The notes under the pieces were generated by a model, which had not been told where the DNA came from, did not search any database, and saw only the letters and a program-made list of their open reading frames with translations. A stretch of DNA of 64,000 nucleotides from contig NZ_FNCY01000021.1 of the NCBI RefSeq assembly GCF_900099695.1, positions 1-64,000 on the forward strand, given 5' to 3'. Origin of the DNA: Propionivibrio dicarboxylicus. Lineage in GTDB: Bacteria; Pseudomonadota; Gammaproteobacteria; Burkholderiales; Rhodocyclaceae. Positions 34,120-44,938 of this stretch are shown here, in pieces. Made by a program: the position numbers and the translations under genes. Numbering within the stretch: position 1 is the stretch's first letter; each line of letters starts with the position of its first letter.

Positions 34120-37100
34120 CGCCTGAGAAGCGAAGCGCCAACGTTGTCCTGGTTCGCAACCCCTTCGAGCGATCGGAGCGCGATCACCTGGTTGTCGAGA
34201 TCGAGTCTGGAACCACGATCGCGGATCTCGTCCGCATGGTTGCGCCCGGGAACACGCCGATGTCGGCGGCGATCGACGGCGAAGTCATTACCCGGGAGGA
34301 GTGGGAGAGAAGGACGCTTGCCGTCGGGGAGCATCTGTCCCTGATCCCGATTCTGCACGGTGGTGGCGGCAACGACCTGCTGCGCACCGTGGCCATGATC
34401 GGGCTGATGATTGCGGCGCCTGGCATCGGCGCGGCGATCGCCGGGTCGATGGGGCTGGTCGGTTCGGCCGCGACAGCGTTTTCCATCTTCGGCACAGCGG
34501 TATCCTGGGGAACGGTGATTGGCGTCGGCGTCGGCATGATCGGCGGCATGCTCGTCAACGCGCTGCTGCCACCGGCGCAGGCAAAGCTGCCAAGTTATGA
34601 CGTCGGCAGCTACGACAATTCCGCCACCTATTCCTGGTCCCCGAAAACCACCCAGGATCCCGGCCTGCCGATCAGCAAGACGTACGGGACGATGCGGCTG
34701 CACGGCAACATCATCGCTTCGTACATCGAGATCAGCGGCGATCTCGGCCAGACGCAGAAGCAACATCTCCTGATCGATCTCGGCATGGGCCCCATCGCTG
34801 AGATCAGCGATATCCGGATTAACGGCCAGCCGATCGAGAACTACTCGGACTGCTATGCCGAAACGCGGCTTGGGTATCTCGACCAGGAAGTGATCTCGGA
34901 TTTCAACGACACCCAGATCACGACGCAGGTTGGCCAGAAGGTCGTTCTCGGCACGCCGGTAACCCGCATCGTCGGTACCGGCGCGGACGCAATCGAAGTC
35001 GAGCTGGTGTTTCCCAATGGGCTGTATTACTACAGCGATTCCGGCAGCCCGGTAACCCACTCGGTCGGCGTTAAAGTTGAGTACGCAGCGGGCGCGGGGG
35101 CATGGGTTGAGGCAGCCTCGGAAACCATATCGGCGGCGTCGACCAAGGCTGTGAGGCGTCGGTTCAAGATCGATAATCTCGATCGCGGCCTTGAGTACAA
35201 GATCCGCGTCAGCAACTCGACGGCTGACCAGACCAGCAGCCGCTACGGCGACGACTGCTACCTCGGCTCGGTGACGCAAATCATGAAGGATGATTTTGCG
35301 TACCCGGGCACGGCACTGCTGGCGATCCGCGCGTTGGCGACGGACCAGCTGTCCGGCGATCTCGATGTGTCGTGCCTCGTCAAGGGGGCACTCGTCCAGG
35401 TCTATCGCGACGGCGCCTGGCATGTTGAGTACAACAACAATCCGGCCTGGGTCTCTTGGGACATCCTCACCCAGCCGGTCATCCGCAACGACCTGACGAT
35501 CGCCGAATACGAGGCGTGCGATCCGGAAGAGTTGATCCTGGCAGATTTCGAAGGGCTGGCGGAATTCGCGGATTATCTGGTCCCCGGCGATGGTGGCGTG
35601 CTCGAGCGCCGCTGCGAATTTGACGGGACATTTGACACCGAGACCACCCTGTGGGACGCCGTCCTGACCGTTCTCGGTACCGCGTATTCTGTCCCCGTTC
35701 CGACGGGTACGCGGATCGGCTTGATCTGGGACCACGTCCGCACCGAGCCGACGCAGGTGTTCACGGTCGGAAATACCAACGTCAGCGGGTTCAAGGAAAC
35801 CTGGCTGCCGATGGACAATCGGCTTTCGCGCCTCGAGGCGGACTTCATCAATCGGGATCTCGACTGGCAGCGCGACCCGATGACCGTCGTCAACAAGGCG
35901 ATGGAGGTCGATGGGAGCCAGTCCTCGACGATCTCGGCGATCGGCATCACGCGCCCGAGCCAGGTGTTTCGCTTCTGCATGCACCGCCTGCTGAAGAATC
36001 AGCACCTGCGCGTGACCGGTGAAATCAGCGTCGATGTCGATGCCTTGAGAAGCAAGACAGGCGATCTCGTTTGGGTGCAATGCGATTTCCCCGCCTGGGG
36101 AAAAGGCGGGCGAATTGTTTCCGGGACGGCGTATAGCGTCGAACTCGACCAGGTCGTGACGCTCGAGGCCGGCGCCGCCTATCAGATCGTCTTGCGCCTG
36201 GCCGACGACAGCATCGTGATCCGGAACGTCACGAACGCCGCCGGAGACGCGCAGATCGTCAATGTCTCGACGCCTTTCCCAGCCGTCCCCGGAAAATACG
36301 ACGTCTACGCGATCGGCAAGGTCGGGCGCAGCCACAAGGAATTCATCGTCACCGACGTCAGCCGCGCGTCTGACATGAAAATGCGCCTCGGCCTGATCGA
36401 GTACAACGCATCGGTGTTCGAGGCCGAGAGCGGCGCGCCAGTGGTTCCAACGACCGTCATTTCCGATCTGACCGTGACTTTCCTATCGGCTTCCGTTACG
36501 GAGCGGATCCGGGCGGTGATCGGCGGGGTGCAGACGATCGACCTGCAGGTGGATTTCACTGTCAACAAGCCGGCGCTCGTCAGGCGCTACGTCGTCGATA
36601 TTCTCGGACCGACGGGCGGCTGGTCAGTGGGTGCCGAGGGCGGATCCTCGCCGTTGATCGTTCCCGGCGTCTCGGCCGGCGATGATGCCCAGCTGCGGAT
36701 CCGCGCGATCGGCACCGGCGGCGCAACGCTCGCCTCCTATCTCATCGGCCACGACGTCGAAGGCGTTAAGGTCGGTCCGGCCGCGCCGACGGCGACGGCG
36801 GTCGGCGCATTGTTCTCGGTCGATATCTCCTGGACGTTCAACGACGCCAGGCAGGACATCCTGGCGACTGAGGTATGGTTTTCCGCAACAAATAATCGGT
36901 CATTCGCGACCCGTTTAACGCCGGAGCCATATCCAACCCGGGCGTATAAGCATCCCGGCCTGCAGCCGGGCGCCGGCGGGTATTACTGGGTTCGGCTTGA
37001 GGACAAATGGGGGAACTACTCCGCCTTCTTCCCTGCTTCTGAAACCGGCGGGTTGCACGCGGTTGCAAGCACCGATCCGTCTTCGCTGCTCTCGCAGTTG

Positions 37101-38723: not shown

Positions 38724-38926
38724 TGACGACGATTGTTAAAGGGCGCGATCTCGATGCCTGCTGCGAATCCGTGCGGTATGAAACGGGGCAGCTCTATTTT
38801 TCATGCACTGCACCCGACGATCCGAACCGAAAGGTACTCGTAACGGTATCACCGCAGGATCAGGACTATCTGCCCGCGATCACATGGGCCATCAACAGCG
38901 GAAAACTCGGAGGAGATAAATCATGA
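38723..38926 (+). CDS. Hypothetical tail-tip-associated protein (67 aa)
   Basis: The ATG overlaps the previous stop (TGATG). The protein reads TTIVKGRDLDACCESVRYET, GQLYFSCTAPDDPNRKVLVT. Two adjacent Cys and a third are present. Unknown family; likely a tail-tip accessory, given its place between J and the fibre. Confidence 0.55.
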   Translation: MTTIVKGRDLDACCESVRYETGQLYFSCTAPDDPNRKVLVTVSPQDQDYLPAITWAINSGKLGGDKS

Positions 38927-40995
38927 GCTGGCAAACATCGGGATTAATCTCGGTCGCTAACGGGTCGAAGAAGGTCTACGGCGTCGGAACCGTTTGGGTA
39001 TCAAGCGGAAAAGGGCGTTCCGGGGACGGGATCATCATGCCCAATGGGTTATTGATGGAAGTGGCGAGTTATGAGTCCAACACGGAATGCACCCTGGTCG
39101 AAAACTACCTCGGCGCCACAGCCAACAGCCAAGCATATAAGATTTTGCCACTCGGGCTGCTTCCATCCGAACTCGCCGATATGTTGACGAGCACACACGA
39201 AGACTATCGCGTGATGATCTTGCAGCTTCTCGACTGGGAGACTTCGACAGCGGACACGGTGCCAATCACCAACCCCGCGACAGGCGTGATCACCAACGTC
39301 AAGACGTTGACGAAGATACTGGCATCACTAACTGATGGCAGTGTTGATGCCGTGCTCAAGACGCTGACGACGAGCGGGGCCGTTTCTAGCGACACATTAA
39401 GCGTTGGGACGACTTCAACTGCTGCAAAAGTAGTGGTCAATTCTGGTGGGGCAACGAAAAACAATGTTGCGGCGATCTTTTCGCACGGTGGTTACTCAAG
39501 CTCTGACGGTGCGAGCACGGAAATTGTTCTCGGATCGTTGTCCGATGCATCGGGACAGGTCGTAAACACCGGCGCGCGGATCAAGTCGGTTGAAAATTAT
39601 TCGAGCGGATATGGTGTAGGCATTACGTTGCAATATCGCACAGCGGGGAACGTTTTAACTGACGGCATTGTGCTTAGCCAAGCAGGAAGCACCGGCTTTG
39701 GGGTTTCTCCGGGTGTTTGGAGCGGTGTAGTTAGTAAAGCTTTGGAATTACAGAATGGCTCTGCTATTGCAGCTCAGAGCAACGCCTTGAATTTGCATCT
39801 GCTCAGAAATGCATATTTCGACAATGGTTGGAAATATAAATCCGCAGCGCCTGCGGCAAGATTCGCATTGAACGACGACGCTGGTGCTGGGGGGTTTGCT
39901 TGGTTCTACGCCGAACCTGGAGCGCCCGGAGACACTATCAATTGGACGCAGTTAAAGGAACTCGACGCTAGCGGGAATGAGATTCTTGGAGCGAACAGCG
40001 GCCCTGGATCTCGTTTGCATGTGGTTGGCGCTAATACATCCACGCAGGTATTTGACGTTGTTACCTACAACGGCAGTTATGCGTTCTATTCTGCCGCCGG
40101 GAATGCGACATCTTCGTCAGGGGAATCATTTTCGTCGTCGATGCTTGGCGTTCGAAAGGATTCAACGACTTCAAGATCCATCAACGCAGCCGGCACAATC
40201 AACGCCAGCGGCGCTGACTACGCCGAATATGAGCGCAAGGCTGCGGCATATCTCGCCGTTCAATTTCTCAAGGGCGACATCGTCGGTTTCAATGCCGATG
40301 GAGAGCTGACGCCGAAGTTCTCGGAGTCCATCCGGTTCGGCGTGAAATCCACGAATCCGAACATCGTCGGCGGCGATACCTGGGGAAGTGAAGACAAGGT
40401 TGGCAAGCGTCCGGAGCCTCCGAGCTATACCGCTCCGGTCTATGAAGGCGCTCCGAATCCCGGCGACAAGCCGAGCGAGCCGGCGCTTGTTCTGCCGCCC
40501 GAGCCGCAGAGGCAAGAGGGTGAGGCAGACGACACGCTCGCGGTCCGCGTGGCGCAATGGCGGGAGTATTACGGGGCGCTGTCGGCAGCGTTCGATGAGG
40601 CGATGGCTGCCTATGCCGAAGTTTTGGCCAAGTGGGAGGAAGCCTTCGCTGCGTGGCAATCCGACGACGCCAAGTATCAGGGCAAGGTCATCGCCGCCCA
40701 GGCCGCGTATGACGCCGCTGTTGCGCAATACGAGGCCGACTTGCCGGTGTTCGAAGCGAAACTGGAAGCCGCACGCCAGCTCGTCGATCGCATTGCCTAC
40801 GCCGGGAAGGTGCCTTGCAATGTGATCGGCGCAAATCCGGGCGACTACATCATCGCGGCAGCCGGCGATGACGGCATGATCGTCGGCGTCGCGGTTTCGG
40901 AGATCGAGTCGTTCTCGCAGATGAAGCGCTGCGTCGGCGTTGTTAATCGAATCCTCGAAGATGGGCGCGCAGAGATTGCTGTGAGGGTTGCTTAA
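38923..40995 (+). CDS. Tail fibre with G2-type autoprotease domain
   Basis: The N-terminal 90 residues (SWQTSGLISVANGSKKVYGV) attach to the tail. The middle (residues 140-420) is a repetitive beta-rich shaft. The C-terminus starts with SINAAGTINASGADYAEYER, LKGDIVGFNADGELTPKFSE and FGVKSTNPNIVGGDTWG, the peptidase G2 intramolecular chaperone seen on tailspikes, which folds the trimer and cuts itself off. Between GDTWG and the final PCNVIGANPGDYIIAAAGDD, IVGVAV region lies a Pro-rich linker and a coiled coil (residues about 500-620). The shaft has lower GC than its neighbours. Confidence 0.8.
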   Translation: MSWQTSGLISVANGSKKVYGVGTVWVSSGKGRSGDGIIMPNGLLMEVASYESNTECTLVENYLGATANSQAYKILPLGLLPSELADMLTSTHEDYRVMILQLLDWETSTADTVPITNPATGVITNVKTLTKILASLTDGSVDAVLKTLTTSGAVSSDTLSVGTTSTAAKVVVNSGGATKNNVAAIFSHGGYSSSDGASTEIVLGSLSDASGQVVNTGARIKSVENYSSGYGVGITLQYRTAGNVLTDGIVLSQAGSTGFGVSPGVWSGVVSKALELQNGSAIAAQSNALNLHLLRNAYFDNGWKYKSAAPAARFALNDDAGAGGFAWFYAEPGAPGDTINWTQLKELDASGNEILGANSGPGSRLHVVGANTSTQVFDVVTYNGSYAFYSAAGNATSSSGESFSSSMLGVRKDSTTSRSINAAGTINASGADYAEYERKAAAYLAVQFLKGDIVGFNADGELTPKFSESIRFGVKSTNPNIVGGDTWGSEDKVGKRPEPPSYTAPVYEGAPNPGDKPSEPALVLPPEPQRQEGEADDTLAVRVAQWREYYGALSAAFDEAMAAYAEVLAKWEEAFAAWQSDDAKYQGKVIAAQAAYDAAVAQYEADLPVFEAKLEAARQLVDRIAYAGKVPCNVIGANPGDYIIAAAGDDGMIVGVAVSEIESFSQMKRCVGVVNRILEDGRAEIAVRVA

Positions 40996-41002
40996 GTAGA
41001 GG

Positions 41003-41120
41003 AGACGGTGCGACCACCAGGTGTGCGGGAACACGCCTGGTAGCCACCGCCCGCAGGTATGAGCTGCGTTTGGCCGAGGCACCGTGCTGTGCACACAGCG
41101 GGCTGAAGCCTAGCACAGAG
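41003..41120 (+). ncRNA. Folded leader RNA of the methylase gene
   Basis: About 118 bases with several compatible stems: GGTGC 41007-41011 with GCACC 41079-41083; CCAGGTGTG 41017-41025 with CACGCCTGG 41032-41040; CGCAG 41052-41056 with CTGCG 41064-41068; GCTGT 41086-41090 with ACAGC 41095-41099. The first hairpin loop GCGGG 41025-41029 can form a pseudoknot with CCCGC 41050-41054. No coding frame fits. Unassigned family; a cis-regulator of the methylase is the simplest reading. Confidence 0.55.
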
Positions 41121-41128
41121 ACGAAACC

Positions 41129-41932
41129 ATGCATATTACCAATCCGATCATTCCGTGGATCGGCGGCAAGCGCCGCTTGGCTGACCGGCTTTTTCCACTA
41201 TTTCCGCAGCATGAATGCTATGTGGAGGTGTTTTGTGGCGGCGCTGCGCTGTATTTTCTTCGGCAGGTGCCGGCGCCTGTTGAAGTGATCAACGACGTAA
41301 ACGGTGAACTGATCAACCTTTACCGTGTAGTGCAGAATCGCCTTGAGGAGTTCGTCCGGCAATTCAAATGGGCGCTTTCAAGCCGCCAGGTGTTCAAATG
41401 GCTCCAAGAGACGAAACCCGAGACGCTTACGGATATTCAACGAGCTGCAAGATTCTTCTATTTGCAGCATCACGCCTTTGCCGGAAAGGTTGCTGGTCAG
41501 ACTTTCGGTACCGCGACGACGTCACCATCAGTCAACTTGCTTCGGATCGAGGAGAACTTGTCTGCCGCGCATCTTCGCCTCGCCGGGGGAACGACGGTCG
41601 AGAACCTGCCCTGGGATGAATGCGTCAAGCGCTACGACCGAGAGCACACCTTTTTCTACATGGACCCTCCCTACTGGCAGACCGAGGGCTACGGCGTGCC
41701 CTTCGACTGGGGGCAGTATGAGGCACTGGCCAGCGCCATGAAGTCGATCAAGGGAAAGGCCATGCTTTCGATCAACGACCACCCGGAAATTAGGTCTTGT
41801 TTTGATGGGTTGGTCTTCCATGAGACGGGGATTAAATACAGTGTTTCAAACACTCATGGGGCGCCCAAAGAATCCGGCGAATTGGTGGTCACAAATTACG
41901 ATCCCAGCTCTACGGGGGGCGGGCTGTTTTAA
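41129..41932 (+). CDS. DNA adenine methylase (Dam/D12 class)
   Basis: A 267-residue N6-adenine methyltransferase of the D12 class: SAM site PIIPWIGGKRRLADRLFPLF, motif I YVEVFCGGAALYFLRQV, and catalytic DPPY in TFFYMDPPYWQTEGYG. It lies at the right end of the phage, the place of the mom DNA-modification gene in Mu, so it probably protects phage DNA from restriction. The ATG follows a 130-base folded leader. Confidence 0.92.
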   Translation: MHITNPIIPWIGGKRRLADRLFPLFPQHECYVEVFCGGAALYFLRQVPAPVEVINDVNGELINLYRVVQNRLEEFVRQFKWALSSRQVFKWLQETKPETLTDIQRAARFFYLQHHAFAGKVAGQTFGTATTSPSVNLLRIEENLSAAHLRLAGGTTVENLPWDECVKRYDREHTFFYMDPPYWQTEGYGVPFDWGQYEALASAMKSIKGKAMLSINDHPEIRSCFDGLVFHETGIKYSVSNTHGAPKESGELVVTNYDPSSTGGGLF

Positions 41933-42102: not shown

Positions 42103-42179
42103 GTGGTAGGGCGTGAGGGGATCGAACCTTCGACAAACGGATTAAGAGTCCGCTGCTCTACCAACTGAGCTAACGCCCC
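42103..42179 (-). tRNA. tRNA-Lys (anticodon CTT)
   Basis: Complete cloverleaf: acceptor GGGGCGT with ACGCCCT, D-arm AGCTCAGTTGGTAGAGC, anticodon loop CTCTTAA, T-arm with GGTTCGATCCC, and encoded CCA. Anticodon CTT reads AAG codons. Confidence 0.95.
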
Positions 42180-42217
42180 ATACCGAAACAGCATTTTACT
42201 ACAAAACATCTGCTTTC

Positions 42218-42293
42218 TGGTAGGTCGGGGGAGATTCGAACTCCCGACCAACGGATTAAAAGTCCGCTGCTCTACCGACTGAGCTACCGACCC
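42218..42293 (-). tRNA. tRNA-Lys (anticodon TTT)
   Basis: Complete cloverleaf: acceptor GGGTCGG with CCGACCT, D-arm AGCTCAGTCGGTAGAGC, anticodon loop CTTTTAA, T-arm with GAGTTCGAATCTC, encoded CCA. Anticodon TTT. It lies upstream of tRNA-Lys(CTT) in the same transcript, 38 bases apart. Confidence 0.95.
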
Positions 42294-42353: not shown

Positions 42354-43055
42354 TCAATCCTGATAGACAGTGGGATCAGTCACTCCCGCGGCGGCAAAAC
42401 CCTCCTGCCGCAACCGACATGCGTCGCAAAGACCGCAAGCCCTTCCGCCCTCGTCCGCCTGATAACACGAAATCGTCATACCATAGTCGACGCCAAGCGA
42501 AACGCCCCGACGAATGATGTCGGCCTTGGAAAGGCTGATCAGCGGCGCATGAATCGTCAGTCTGGCACCCTCCACCGCAGCCTTGGTCGCGAGATTGGCC
42601 ATCGCCTGGAATGACGCAATGAATTCAGGCCGACAATCCGGATACCCGGAATAATCGACTGCATTGACACCGACATAAATATCGCGGCTGCCCAACACCT
42701 CAGCCCAGGCAAGCGCCAGCGAGAGCATGATGGTATTGCGCGCCGGCACGTAGGTGACCGGAATACCGGAACCAACGCCTTCCGTCGGCACGGCGATATG
42801 CTCGTCCGTCAACGCCGAACCGCCAAAGGCCGCGAGATCCAGCTTCATGACGCGGTGCTCACGCGCACCCAAACTGCTTGCCAACTTCTTTGCCGCGTTC
42901 AATTCGGCACCGTGTCGCTGACCATAATCCAGCGACAGGCAATAGCACGCATGCCCTCTGTCACGCGCGATCGCCAAAGTGGTGGCCGAATCGAGACCGC
43001 CGGAGAGCAGCACTACAGCCGGCGCTCCCGGTGGAGAAGATAATTCCATTGCCAT
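42354..43055 (-). CDS. queC: 7-cyano-7-deazaguanine synthase QueC
   Basis: Converts CDG to preQ0 in queuosine synthesis, using ATP and ammonia, in the cytoplasm. The 233-residue protein has the ATP-pyrophosphatase loop [20 protein letters not shown], the [18 protein letters not shown] segment and the C-terminal zinc site [20 protein letters not shown]. The ATG shares bases with the stop of the PilZ gene. queE lies two genes upstream, so the queuosine pathway is partly clustered here. Confidence 0.95.
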
Positions 43056-43477
43056 TAGTTCTTTTCGCTTTCGATGCTTTCCGGATCTTCCGGGTTTTCG
43101 CTCTCCGGATCCGTCTCCACAATCAACGAAGACAGTTCCCGGTCGAGCAACTCTGGGTCGCCCAGATTGAGTTCGACGAGGCGACGCAGATGCGTCACAC
43201 TATCCAGATCGATTGCCGCACACCGCAGACCGGCATAGCGCCCTTCGACATGCGCCGACTCGACATCCATGCTGATGCGCATATCAGAGTCATCGCCAAG
43301 ACGAACGTGCAACTTTCCGGTTTCACCTTCCGCCATCGTCGTTCCCGCCGGAAGCCTGACCAGCGCACCCTTCAGGGACAAATCGATCACCACCGTATCA
43401 AGCGCACGGAGCGGAAGCACCAGCCTTGCTATCGAATGAAACGCCACGCGGGAATACTGACGCCGATCATCGTTCAT
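43055..43477 (-). CDS. PilZ-domain protein
   Basis: A 140-residue protein with a PilZ domain: [17 protein letters not shown] (RxxxR c-di-GMP motif in a DDRRQYSRV form) and then [14 protein letters not shown] (the D/N-x-S-x-x-G motif). It should bind cyclic di-GMP. The last 35 residues are acidic and disordered ([20 protein letters not shown]). It sits between queE and queC and probably shares their transcript without a functional link. Confidence 0.85.
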
Positions 43478-43491
43478 AGTCGTCTCCTTGG

Positions 43492-44151
43492 CTATTTACC
43501 CTGCATGTTACCCCAAAGCAACTTGTGTAGTTGCAACTGGAAGCGAACAGGCAGACGATCCGCCAGCACCCATTCCGCCAGCATCTGAGGGCCGATGGCC
43601 CCCTGAACTGGAGAGATGAGCAAGGGACAAACCCCTTCGAGCCGATTATCCCGAATGACTTGCCGGGTCCATTCATAGTCCTGACGATCGGCAACGACAA
43701 ATTTGATTTCATCGGCCGCCGTCAGGCAGGCCAGATTCGCCCAGAGATTCTTCTCCGTCTCCCCCGAGGAGGGCGCCTTCAGGTCGACGATGCGGGACAC
43801 CCGCGAATCGACGGCGCTGACATCAAGCGCCCCGGAAGTTTCCAGCGATACGTCATAGCCGGCATCGCACAGTGCCGTCAGCAGTACAAGACACGCTGTC
43901 TGCGCCAGCGGCTCTCCGCCGGTTACGCACACATGGCGCGTGCCAAACTCGGCGACACGATGAAGAATCGCGTCAAGCGACATCCGCGCACCGCCGGTAA
44001 AGGCATGCGTGGTATCGCACCAACTGCAGCGCAACGGACATCCGGTCAGACGGACGAATACCGTCGGCAAGCCGATGCGGCTTGCCTCGCCCTGCAGCGA
44101 ATAAAAAATCTCGCTGACCCGCAGGGTCAGCGATTCATCACGAGCAACCAC
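43492..44151 (-). CDS. queE: 7-carboxy-7-deazaguanine synthase QueE
   Basis: Radical SAM enzyme that makes CDG from CPH4. The cluster motif CPLRCSWCDTTHAFTGG (Cx3Cx2C) and the CVTGGEPLAQ loop are clear. Length is about 219 aa from the GTG at 44151, which is just beyond the cpoB stop; the frame is open further upstream, but that part overlaps cpoB and is a shadow. The SEIFYSLQGEASRIGLPTVF start region is as in other QueE proteins. It acts with queC. Confidence 0.92.
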   Translation of the reverse strand: MVARDESLTLRVSEIFYSLQGEASRIGLPTVFVRLTGCPLRCSWCDTTHAFTGGARMSLDAILHRVAEFGTRHVCVTGGEPLAQTACLVLLTALCDAGYDVSLETSGALDVSAVDSRVSRIVDLKAPSSGETEKNLWANLACLTAADEIKFVVADRQDYEWTRQVIRDNRLEGVCPLLISPVQGAIGPQMLAEWVLADRLPVRFQLQLHKLLWGNMQGK

Positions 44152-44155
44152 CGGA

Positions 44156-44938
44156 CTACTTCTTGATCCGCTGCTTGGCCGTCGCGGCTGCCGAACTGCC
44201 GGGGTACTTGGCCAGAATGCTCTCGTACGTCGCCTTGGCTCCCTTGGCGTCGCCGATGTCATGCTGACAGGTGGCAACGCCGATCAGCGAATCGGACGCC
44301 TTGGCGTGCTGCGGCCATTTCGCGACCACCACCCGGTACGCATCGATCGACTTCTTGCAATCACGCAAGGTGTAATAGGCGTTGCCGAGCCAGTACTGCG
44401 CATTCGGCGCCAAAGTGCTGTCGGGATAATTACGGCCGAAGGATTCGAATGCCGCCGCCGCTTCCTTGATACGGTTGGCCTTGAAGAAATTCAGCGCCGC
44501 CTCGTAGTCGCGGGACTCCGCCGCAGGGTCCACAACCTTCTTGACCGGTTCCGCTGGCTTGGCCTCATCCGCCGGCTTTCCTTCGCCCCCGTCGGCAGCA
44601 GCGGGCTGCGTTTCCAGCTTGCGCAGCCGCCCGTCGAGATCGATGTAAAAGTCCTGCTGCCGCTTCTTGGCCGATTCGAGTTCGAAGGTCAGCGTTTCGA
44701 CCTGACCGCGCAGACGCGCGTTTTCTTCCCGCAAGGACTGGATCTGGTTAACCAGATCGAATTGCCCTTTGGTCAGCGTATCCAGGCGCTCATTGGTCTG
44801 AGCCGACAGATCGCGGACCTGCCGACGCGCCTCGTCGTCATCGAACACTCCCGCGCGCGCCGGCTGGAGGCCGGAGAGCACGAGCAGCACAGCCAACGCG
44901 GGGAGCGCAGGCAGGTAACGCGAACGGCGCGTCGTCAT
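44156..44938 (-). CDS. cpoB: Cell division coordinator CpoB (YbgF)
   Basis: A periplasmic protein that links peptidoglycan synthesis to outer-membrane constriction by the Tol-Pal system. Signal peptide RYLPALPALAVLLVLSGLQP ARA; an N-terminal coiled coil (LDTLTKGQFDLVNQIQSLRE, RGQVETLTFELESAKKR) for TolA binding and trimerisation; a Pro/Ala/Lys linker; and C-terminal tetratricopeptide repeats (YEAALNFFKANRIKEAAAAF, PNAQYWLGNAYYTLRDCKKS). ATG 44938 lies directly after the pal stop. Last gene of the tol-pal cluster. Confidence 0.93.
   Translation of the reverse strand: MTTRRSRYLPALPALAVLLVLSGLQPARAGVFDDDEARRQVRDLSAQTNERLDTLTKGQFDLVNQIQSLREENARLRGQVETLTFELESAKKRQQDFYIDLDGRLRKLETQPAAADGGEGKPADEAKPAEPVKKVVDPAAESRDYEAALNFFKANRIKEAAAAFESFGRNYPDSTLAPNAQYWLGNAYYTLRDCKKSIDAYRVVVAKWPQHAKASDSLIGVATCQHDIGDAKGAKATYESILAKYPGSSAAATAKQRIKK

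Follow-up and report, generated by a model that had tools for sequence, protein, structure and literature searches.

A Structured Leader RNA That Precedes Phage DNA-Modification Operons and Probably Controls Translation of the Next Gene

A conserved RNA was found directly upstream of DNA-modification genes in phages and prophages, and comparison of its copies indicates that it is probably the leader of phage DNA-modification operons, acting in cis to control translation of the gene that comes next. The copy whose numbering is used here lies in the window, which is the whole stretch of DNA that was analysed (64,000 nucleotides of Propionivibrio dicarboxylicus, contig NZ_FNCY01000021.1), where a strongly folding stretch separates the stop codon of a tail fibre-like gene at 40995 from the ATG of a methylase gene at 41129. 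The helices of the RNA are preserved by compensatory base changes, the gene that follows is nearly always a modification gene or com, and in relatives one strand of the core is complementary to the ribosome-binding site (RBS) of that gene.

Results

Locus in the Window

The features of the locus are listed below. The counts of changed and paired positions refer to 100 non-redundant copies of the RNA.

38923–40995, + strand: tail fibre-like gene (phrog_1980 and others), with its stop codon 10 nt 5' of P1
41003–41112, + strand: core of the leader RNA family; DNA relatives match over 41003–41112, and covariance model R1 matches 41000–41120 with 104.8 bits, a score that is not independent because the window copy is one of the 65 sequences behind R1
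41006–41011, + strand: P1 5' strand, pairing with 41079–41084; 5 of 6 pairs changed on both sides, 92.8% of cells paired
41014–41043, + strand: P2 hairpin with a loop of six bases at 41026–41031; 11 of 12 pairs changed on both sides, 88.5% paired
41045–41048, + strand: strand able to pair with the P1 5' strand (41007–41010); overlaps P5
41047–41073, + strand: P5, a short helix closing the P3 arm (41047–41048 with 41072–41073); 2 of 2 pairs changed on both sides, 68.9% paired
41052–41068, + strand: P3 hairpin, CGCAG/CTGCG; 4 of 4 tested pairs (41053–41056 with 41064–41067) changed on both sides, 99.0% paired
41064–41075, + strand: P3 3' strand and joint to P1, the anti-RBS strand in relatives (z 10.7 and 9.8)
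41079–41084, + strand: P1 3' strand (same 100-copy count as the 5' strand)
41085–41101, + strand: P4 hairpin, two helices; 6 of 6 tested pairs changed on both sides, 82.5% and 82.7% paired
41106–41112, + strand: conserved tail AAGCCTA; 41107, 41111, and 41112 are invariant in 65 aligned copies
41116–41128, + strand: ribosome-binding region of the methylase gene, assigned by its position 5' of the ATG
41129–41932, + strand: D12 class N6-adenine DNA methyltransferase (PF02086, E = 2.2e-26; phrog_56, E = 1.4e-91)

The surrounding prophage carries genes with matches to transposase, DNA transposition protein, terminase, portal, head, and tape-measure families. Its earlier designation as Mu-like is right as to the transposase and DNA transposition protein matches, though the tail protein is of the J type. 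The genes are arranged as J-type tail protein and fibre-like gene, leader, and D12 adenine methylase, and only 16 nt separate the element from the methylase ATG. The fibre-like gene gave no match in a Pfam search. The com gene that adjoins or overlaps the modification gene in Mu has no counterpart in this 16-nt gap, and a search of the window's genome with PF10122 (Com) returned no match; 14 control genomes were equally without one. Two tRNA genes and, by eye, queC- and queE-like frames lie beyond the methylase end of the prophage (42107–42293 and 42354–44277, − strand).

A folded leader between the fibre stop and the methylase ATG had been proposed in a preliminary description of this DNA. 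The folding energy of the window copy, −51.3 kcal/mol, is unremarkable (z = −1.45; 19 of 200 shuffles were equally stable), and the leader at 41003–41112 is judged to be real because it is conserved.

Distribution of the RNA

When 395 genomes of the same family were searched at the DNA level, 31 had a match at E ≤ 0.01. Twenty of these, including that of the window, contained a long match, one match was cut by a contig end, and ten genomes had matches of 19–32 bases that perhaps arose by chance. The closest relative among the 395 genomes was 86% identical over 110 nt. Twenty of the 33 places found in this search were taken as loci.

The covariance model R1 was constructed from 65 aligned copies drawn from loci L009–L106, which comprise the relatives from the DNA search and 80 viral contigs found by methylase similarity. 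R1 matches 74 of the loci from these 80 contigs and 18 of the 20 from the DNA search, most of which had gone into the model. A model of this kind from methylase-linked leaders of other Mu-like prophages had been suggested as a check in the preliminary description, and absence of the stretch in front of other phage methylase genes would have spoken against the leader; R1 matched 244 of 264 methylase-first loci outside the model. The loci behind this number were fetched after the model had been built, by methylase similarity. R1 matched 72 of 80 in the genome_contigs set, 8 of 9 of the VP882 type, and 76 of 80 and 74 of 80 in two more sets of viral loci; annotated phages, hand-picked from 40 of 877 records, gave 14 of 15 (including B3, KS9, VP882, phiHAP-1, S1, AM106, and MuM16-1). 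With 74 of the 80 loci L009–L088 added, the count including model loci is 318 of 344. The methylase-first sets overlap in contigs, one contig having been retrieved with two queries, and some members are related to model copies, so these counts are not independent, and some of the unmatched loci have hardly any upstream DNA (e.g., L261 and L294). The annotated phage without a match to R1 is a Bacillus phage. Locus L218, with 97% identity between its methylase and the VP882 enzyme, gave no R1 match at E 0.001. Bacillus phage vB_BpuM-ZY1 (L135) has a related methylase without the RNA, and inspection by eye of the gap in front of it apparently reveals another hairpin and a LexA-like palindrome.

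At E ≤ 0.001, R1 matched 12 genomes in a draw of 369 from the class, 14 in a draw of 398 from the phylum, and 31 in a draw of 399 from the order, each draw including the window's genome and losing weak matches to strict filters. The phylum draw contained one carrier outside the class. Only part of the places found in the phylum and order draws were taken as loci. The full alignment contained 355 rows, and removal of six short ones (L111-, L129-, L120, L315-, L334-, and L341-) left 349; these include the window copy in duplicate (L089 and L109) and one row (L206) that is a chance match on the minus strand.

Secondary Structure

The fold consisting of P1, P2, P5, P3, and P4 was evaluated with the 100 non-redundant copies. 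In this set 88.4% of the cells are paired versus 66.2% after shuffling, the covariation score is 0.511 versus 0.152, and the number of cells changed on both sides is 640 versus 197; none of 500 shuffles reached the observed value for any of the three measures. When the partners were shifted by 1–3 columns, pairing fell to 31.5–40.4%. Both sides were altered in 28 of the 30 tested pairs, so that the compensatory base changes demanded of the stems at the outset were found in the homologous phages. The alignment leans towards P1–P4 because it was fitted to them, and P5 lies outside the model. Mutual information from the same alignment placed the same helices in the top ranks, and the P5 pair 41047–41073 gave a signal with 90% standard pairs.

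The long hairpin with a six-base loop and the CGCAG/CTGCG stem of the preliminary description are P2 and P3, respectively. The pseudoknot described with them, in which GCGGG (41025–41029) would pair with CCCGC (41050–41054), is at the level of chance in the 100 copies, with 58.7% of cells paired versus 60.1% after shuffling and a covariation of 0.116 versus 0.132. The broader idea of mutually exclusive pairings fared better, since other such pairings exist. One of them, 41007–41010 with 41045–41048, has a covariation of 0.223 versus 0.108 for shuffled columns (0 of 500 reach this value), with only 66.7% of its cells paired; the other is the pairing of the P3 3' strand with the RBS in relatives.

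Positions 41026 and 41031 of the P2 loop covary strongly and by eye are mostly C-A or U-G. These two pairs have similar wobble shapes, which suggests a conserved loop closed by a wobble pair. Positions 41008, 41047, 41073, and 41082 covary jointly; 41008 pairs with 41082 in P1 and 41047 with 41073 in P5, and the cross pairings also fit most copies. This pattern could reflect strand exchange or a tertiary contact.

Two further candidate elements were considered. A possible pairing of AGGC on the P1 3' side (41077–41080) with GCCT in the tail (41108–41111) was present in 86.9% of cells versus 86.1% after shuffling (36 of 500 shuffles reach this value), with a covariation of 0.166 versus 0.148 (13 of 500 reach it). 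An intrinsic terminator was discarded because a run of five T residues near the end of the RNA occurs in only 9 of the 349 rows.

Genes Following the RNA

Searches that start from the RNA ignore the identity of the neighbouring gene and thus serve as a check on the methylase-first sets. The DNA search and the class draw gave 28 RNA-first loci, one of which is cut by a contig end; the window copies were left out, as were L107, L108, and L120, which lack a full-length match. All 27 testable loci precede a methylase gene and/or com, 26 by tblastn and the other (L117) by a PF01555 methylase.

Pattern scans of viral sequences gave at least 153 stretches, at least 140 of which have a modification gene or com within 1.3 kb; 3 are truncated and 10 are without. 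Some of the contigs in these scans are also in the methylase-first sets. Among the matches listed, 110 are followed by dam, 15 by com and dam, 8 by com and a PF01555 methylase, 5 by com and an ABC/GNAT protein, and 2 by com with nothing recognised after it, although one of these two (L502) has Mom (PF25680) and the other is incomplete. Among the matches listed, ten stretches lack a modification gene; five of them (L426, L427, L442, L469, and L471) look chance-like by eye, and the RNA is present in L425, L458, L459, L431, and L531. In L425 and L458 the RNA (53.4 bits) is followed by what by eye is a tail-spike-like frame, with no modification gene within 1.3 kb, and is apparently a remnant. L531 has a strong copy (112.9 bits) before an apparent com frame that, by eye, ends early.

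In the phylum and order draws, 37 of 42 loci have a modification gene or com within 1.5 kb, 3 have none, 1 is truncated, and 1 was not relocated. The 37 are made up of 18 com and dam, 13 dam, 3 com and ABC/GNAT, 2 com and PF01555 (weak, and about 1 kb away), and 1 com and C5 methylase (PF00145); the count includes L569 and L582, in which the recognised enzyme lies at least 1 kb downstream. Over the whole alignment, dam or com starts between 6 nt before and 60 nt after the end of the RNA in 339 of 349 copies (297 dam and 42 com).

Three loci have the RNA directly before com-mom. In Pseudomonas phages JD024 and PAN70 it is followed by a com frame, absent from the record annotation, and then by mom. 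The mom regions of Mu (34743–36717) and of Aeromonas phage pAEv1818 gave no match to the RNA. With the RNA directly before com in many relatives, the comparison with Com/mom drawn in the preliminary description is apt. The ABC/GNAT protein gave weak matches to ABC_tran, Acetyltransf_7, and Acetyltransf_1, below the Pfam cut-offs, and it is counted as a putative modification enzyme from its position.

The RNA is therefore not tied to one chemistry, being found with D12, PF01555, C5, Mom, and ABC/GNAT operons. The RNA-first results indicate an association with phage DNA modification as a whole, in which D12 methylases are the commonest by far. An independent small RNA or a trailer of the tail-fibre gene was set aside because the upstream gene varies between copies while the downstream gene is nearly constant in function, being almost always a modification gene or com. 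The idea that the RNA and com replace one another, taken from 170-nt upstream stretches, was wrong; com loci carry the RNA upstream of com.

The range of operons bears on whether the RNA is a SAM or SAH riboswitch, a proposal of the preliminary description in which the core would bind the cofactor or product of the methylase and gate the RBS. Most copies do precede D12 methylases (110 and 15 of the 153 viral stretches, among the matches listed), and several SAM riboswitches work through a gated RBS. However, the same RNA stands before com-Mom in three loci and before com-ABC/GNAT in 5 of the 153 stretches, among the matches listed, and in 3 of the 42 loci; to our knowledge neither Mom nor the ABC/GNAT protein is a known SAM methylase, and these operons weaken the case for such a sensor. 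In addition, Rfam 15 at gathering scores gave no family for the leader in the window or in six relatives, and a lax search of 40900–41200 up to E 10 returned only Ref66 (E = 0.32), so no SAM or SAH family was matched at either level. The Rfam results bear out the earlier impression that the motif lies outside the named families, and a SAM or SAH sensor is quite improbable. A leader that controls translation remains the preferred reading, of which a SAM or SAH sensor would be a special case.

Two further observations concern the neighbourhood of the start codon and of the methylase gene. Between the end of the RNA and the ATG, 122 of the 349 rows contain a LexA-like box (CTGTTTATCCATACAG and variants), as found with a loose pattern of which one hit is probably due to chance; the examples inspected, L050, L123, and L168 among the loci, are from Pseudomonas. 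A promoter at this place would give a leaderless methylase transcript, perhaps under SOS control. The annotation of Shewanella phage MuM16-1 (L130) has a small nucleic acid-binding protein of the Zn-ribbon type a short way 3' of the methylase, possibly a Com-like protein acting from afar.

Complementarity to the Ribosome-Binding Site

In relatives, the P3 3' strand together with its joint to P1 is complementary to the RBS of the next gene, whether this is dam or com. Of the 349 rows, 10 are without a start, and the remainder gave 202 unique pairs and 120 after thinning. The start finder took TTG in 125 of 339 loci, and some RBS windows are consequently shifted. For 91 non-redundant dam loci, the best uninterrupted complement has a mean score of 15.48, versus 12.66 when the RBS sequences are swapped between loci (sd 0.28; highest of 500 permutations, 13.56). 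For 29 com loci the mean is 14.74 versus 12.85 (sd 0.49; highest, 14.32). This permutation null ignores the kinship of the sequences. With stronger thinning, six or more consecutive Watson-Crick pairs are found in 34 of 54 dam clusters, where chance would give 11.0 (maximum over 200 permutations, 17); the other 20 clusters are without such a run. A second count gave 20 of 35 clusters versus 5.9 expected (highest permutation, 11). The thinned com clusters gave 7 of 13 versus a null mean of 2.7, and the highest of 200 permutations was also 7.

The complementarity is localised. A 12-nt window moved along the RNA in 81 of the 91 dam loci, those with a start at least 8 nt after the RNA (the limit also used for the stronger-thinning count), gave z values of 10.7 and 9.8 at the P3 3' strand and joint, 3.0 for an overlapping neighbour, and −1.7 to 2.4 elsewhere. 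In 28 com-dam operons the strand fits the RBS of com (z = 3.4) and not that of dam (z = −1.0). The paired sequences are of many types, e.g., TGTGAGCC/GGCTCACA, TGCAAGCC/GGCTTGCA, GTGAGAGC/GCTTTCAC, and CAAAAGC/GCTTTTG. A strand that tracks the adjacent gene is as expected for control of the translation of that gene.

In 32 of these 34 dam clusters the run of six or more pairs takes in one base or more of the P3 3' strand, which implies that P3 and the RBS helix compete. One strand is thus able to pair either in a core stem or with the RBS in relatives, the arrangement of an anti-Shine-Dalgarno switch. The structured methylase leader proposed at the outset is upheld, and it is probably a switch.

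The window copy itself has a best contiguous RBS complement of 10.5 versus a permuted mean of 12.66, which is not above chance. If the sequence folded extends over the start codon, P1 and P3 are absent from the best fold predicted. In the predicted alternative, 41064–41074 pairs with 41108–41118 through nine pairs with two mismatches (GCC 41108–41110 with 41072–41074, and CAG 41116–41118 with 41064–41066), and 41053–41058 pairs across the start codon. The predicted energies are −54.4 kcal/mol for the best fold overall and −51.3 kcal/mol for that keeping P1 and P3, a predicted gap of 3.1 kcal/mol, which agrees with a two-state leader.

We also considered that the RNA might act in processing, self-cleavage, or transcript stability where the operon begins, with no switch of translation. 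The RNA sits between the preceding phage gene and the modification gene, and its conserved joints are compatible with a catalytic core. No Rfam ribozyme family was matched at gathering scores, however, and a pure processing element has no need for a strand that tracks the RBS of the next gene. This is the least probable of the explanations considered here, and control of translation remains preferred.

Discussion

In the proposed mechanism, P3 would be closed and the RBS free in the ON state, and in the OFF state the P3 3' strand would be paired with the RBS. The signal on which the conserved core would select between the two states may be a small molecule, a protein of the phage or the host, or the arrival of ribosomes at the end of the upstream late gene. 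Such control would probably serve to silence a potentially harmful DNA-modifying enzyme until its proper time in the lytic cycle, and the delay of the methylase until late infection suggested in the preliminary description would be a plausible purpose.

Ribosomes as the trigger would dispense with a ligand. Translation of the upstream gene would end just before P1, and the ribosome would cover the P1 5' strand and thereby free or block the RBS. The upstream stop codon is 10 nt before P1 in the window, and among 150 thinned copies, of which 139 have a frame of at least 60 codons ending nearby and 11 do not, the longest upstream frame ends between 20 nt before and 10 nt after the start of P1 in 82 of the 139. 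The other 57 copies fall outside this range, however, and in our judgement the P2 loop, the joints, and the tail are more conserved than simple coupling needs. We consider this trigger unlikely.

Binding of the core by a protein of phage or host origin, which might resemble Com, is a somewhat better candidate for the trigger, though still a doubtful one. The next gene is com in many copies, and Com of Mu is described in PMC6483171 as an RNA-binding activator of mom translation. Many copies are without an adjoining com, however, and Com was not found in the window's genome, with the control genomes likewise giving nothing. Inspection of the core by eye did not reveal GAG(N)2CC, the SELEX motif of Com (PMC6483171). 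The product of the next gene is unlikely to bind the leader autogenously, since that gene varies in family.

Tentatively, the copies may represent a class of phage RNA sensors that times anti-restriction modification. One core, common to different phages, would respond to a common signal of the state of infection, such as a metabolite or host factor, and would gate translation of the modification operon behind it, and the anti-RBS strand would have evolved anew in front of enzymes of unrelated chemistry. We put this forward as a possibility with less than even chances of being correct.

DNA modification protects phages from restriction, and its timing matters because some modifications may harm the host. 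We know of little on the control of phage DNA modification beyond Com/mom in Mu. A single RNA common to hundreds of phage loci and to modification enzymes of unrelated kinds would open this control to direct test. The RNA is in addition a marker by which unknown phage DNA-modification genes might be found, and is a candidate new sensor of a ligand or protein.

Comparison with Known Systems

SAM-II, SAM-III/SMK, and preQ1 are translational riboswitches that sequester the Shine-Dalgarno sequence. The RNA described here resembles them in having a conserved multi-stem core and, in relatives, an anti-RBS strand that overlaps one stem; it differs from them in having no Rfam match and in being associated with genes by function, namely DNA modification, and not by one metabolite. 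Like the leaders of ribosomal protein operons and other protein-bound leaders, it is a cis-acting fold before a putatively regulated gene, but it is followed by genes of varying family.

A 2010 survey of 104 candidate RNAs includes the phage-borne c4 antisense, manA, and wcaG RNAs (PMC2864571). These were also found by comparative genomics and are phage-associated, but they are described there with other genes, and the words methylase, methyltransferase, and mom are absent from the main text of the survey. No description of the leader was found in the open PMC literature searched, including PMC2864571, PMC8632094, and PMC8040213.

Another close parallel is that of phage Mu, where an inhibiting structure is present at mom, Com has been proposed to open it, and Com activates the translation of mom (PMC6483171). 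Both cases involve a phage DNA-modification operon, and the mechanism proposed for the present RNA would share with Mu a translation start kept in RNA structure and its release by a regulator. They differ in that the RNA described here precedes com, or dam without com, whereas the inhibiting structure of Mu is at mom (PMC6483171). The RNA appears to be new as a family and, as a kind, to be a translational leader RNA.
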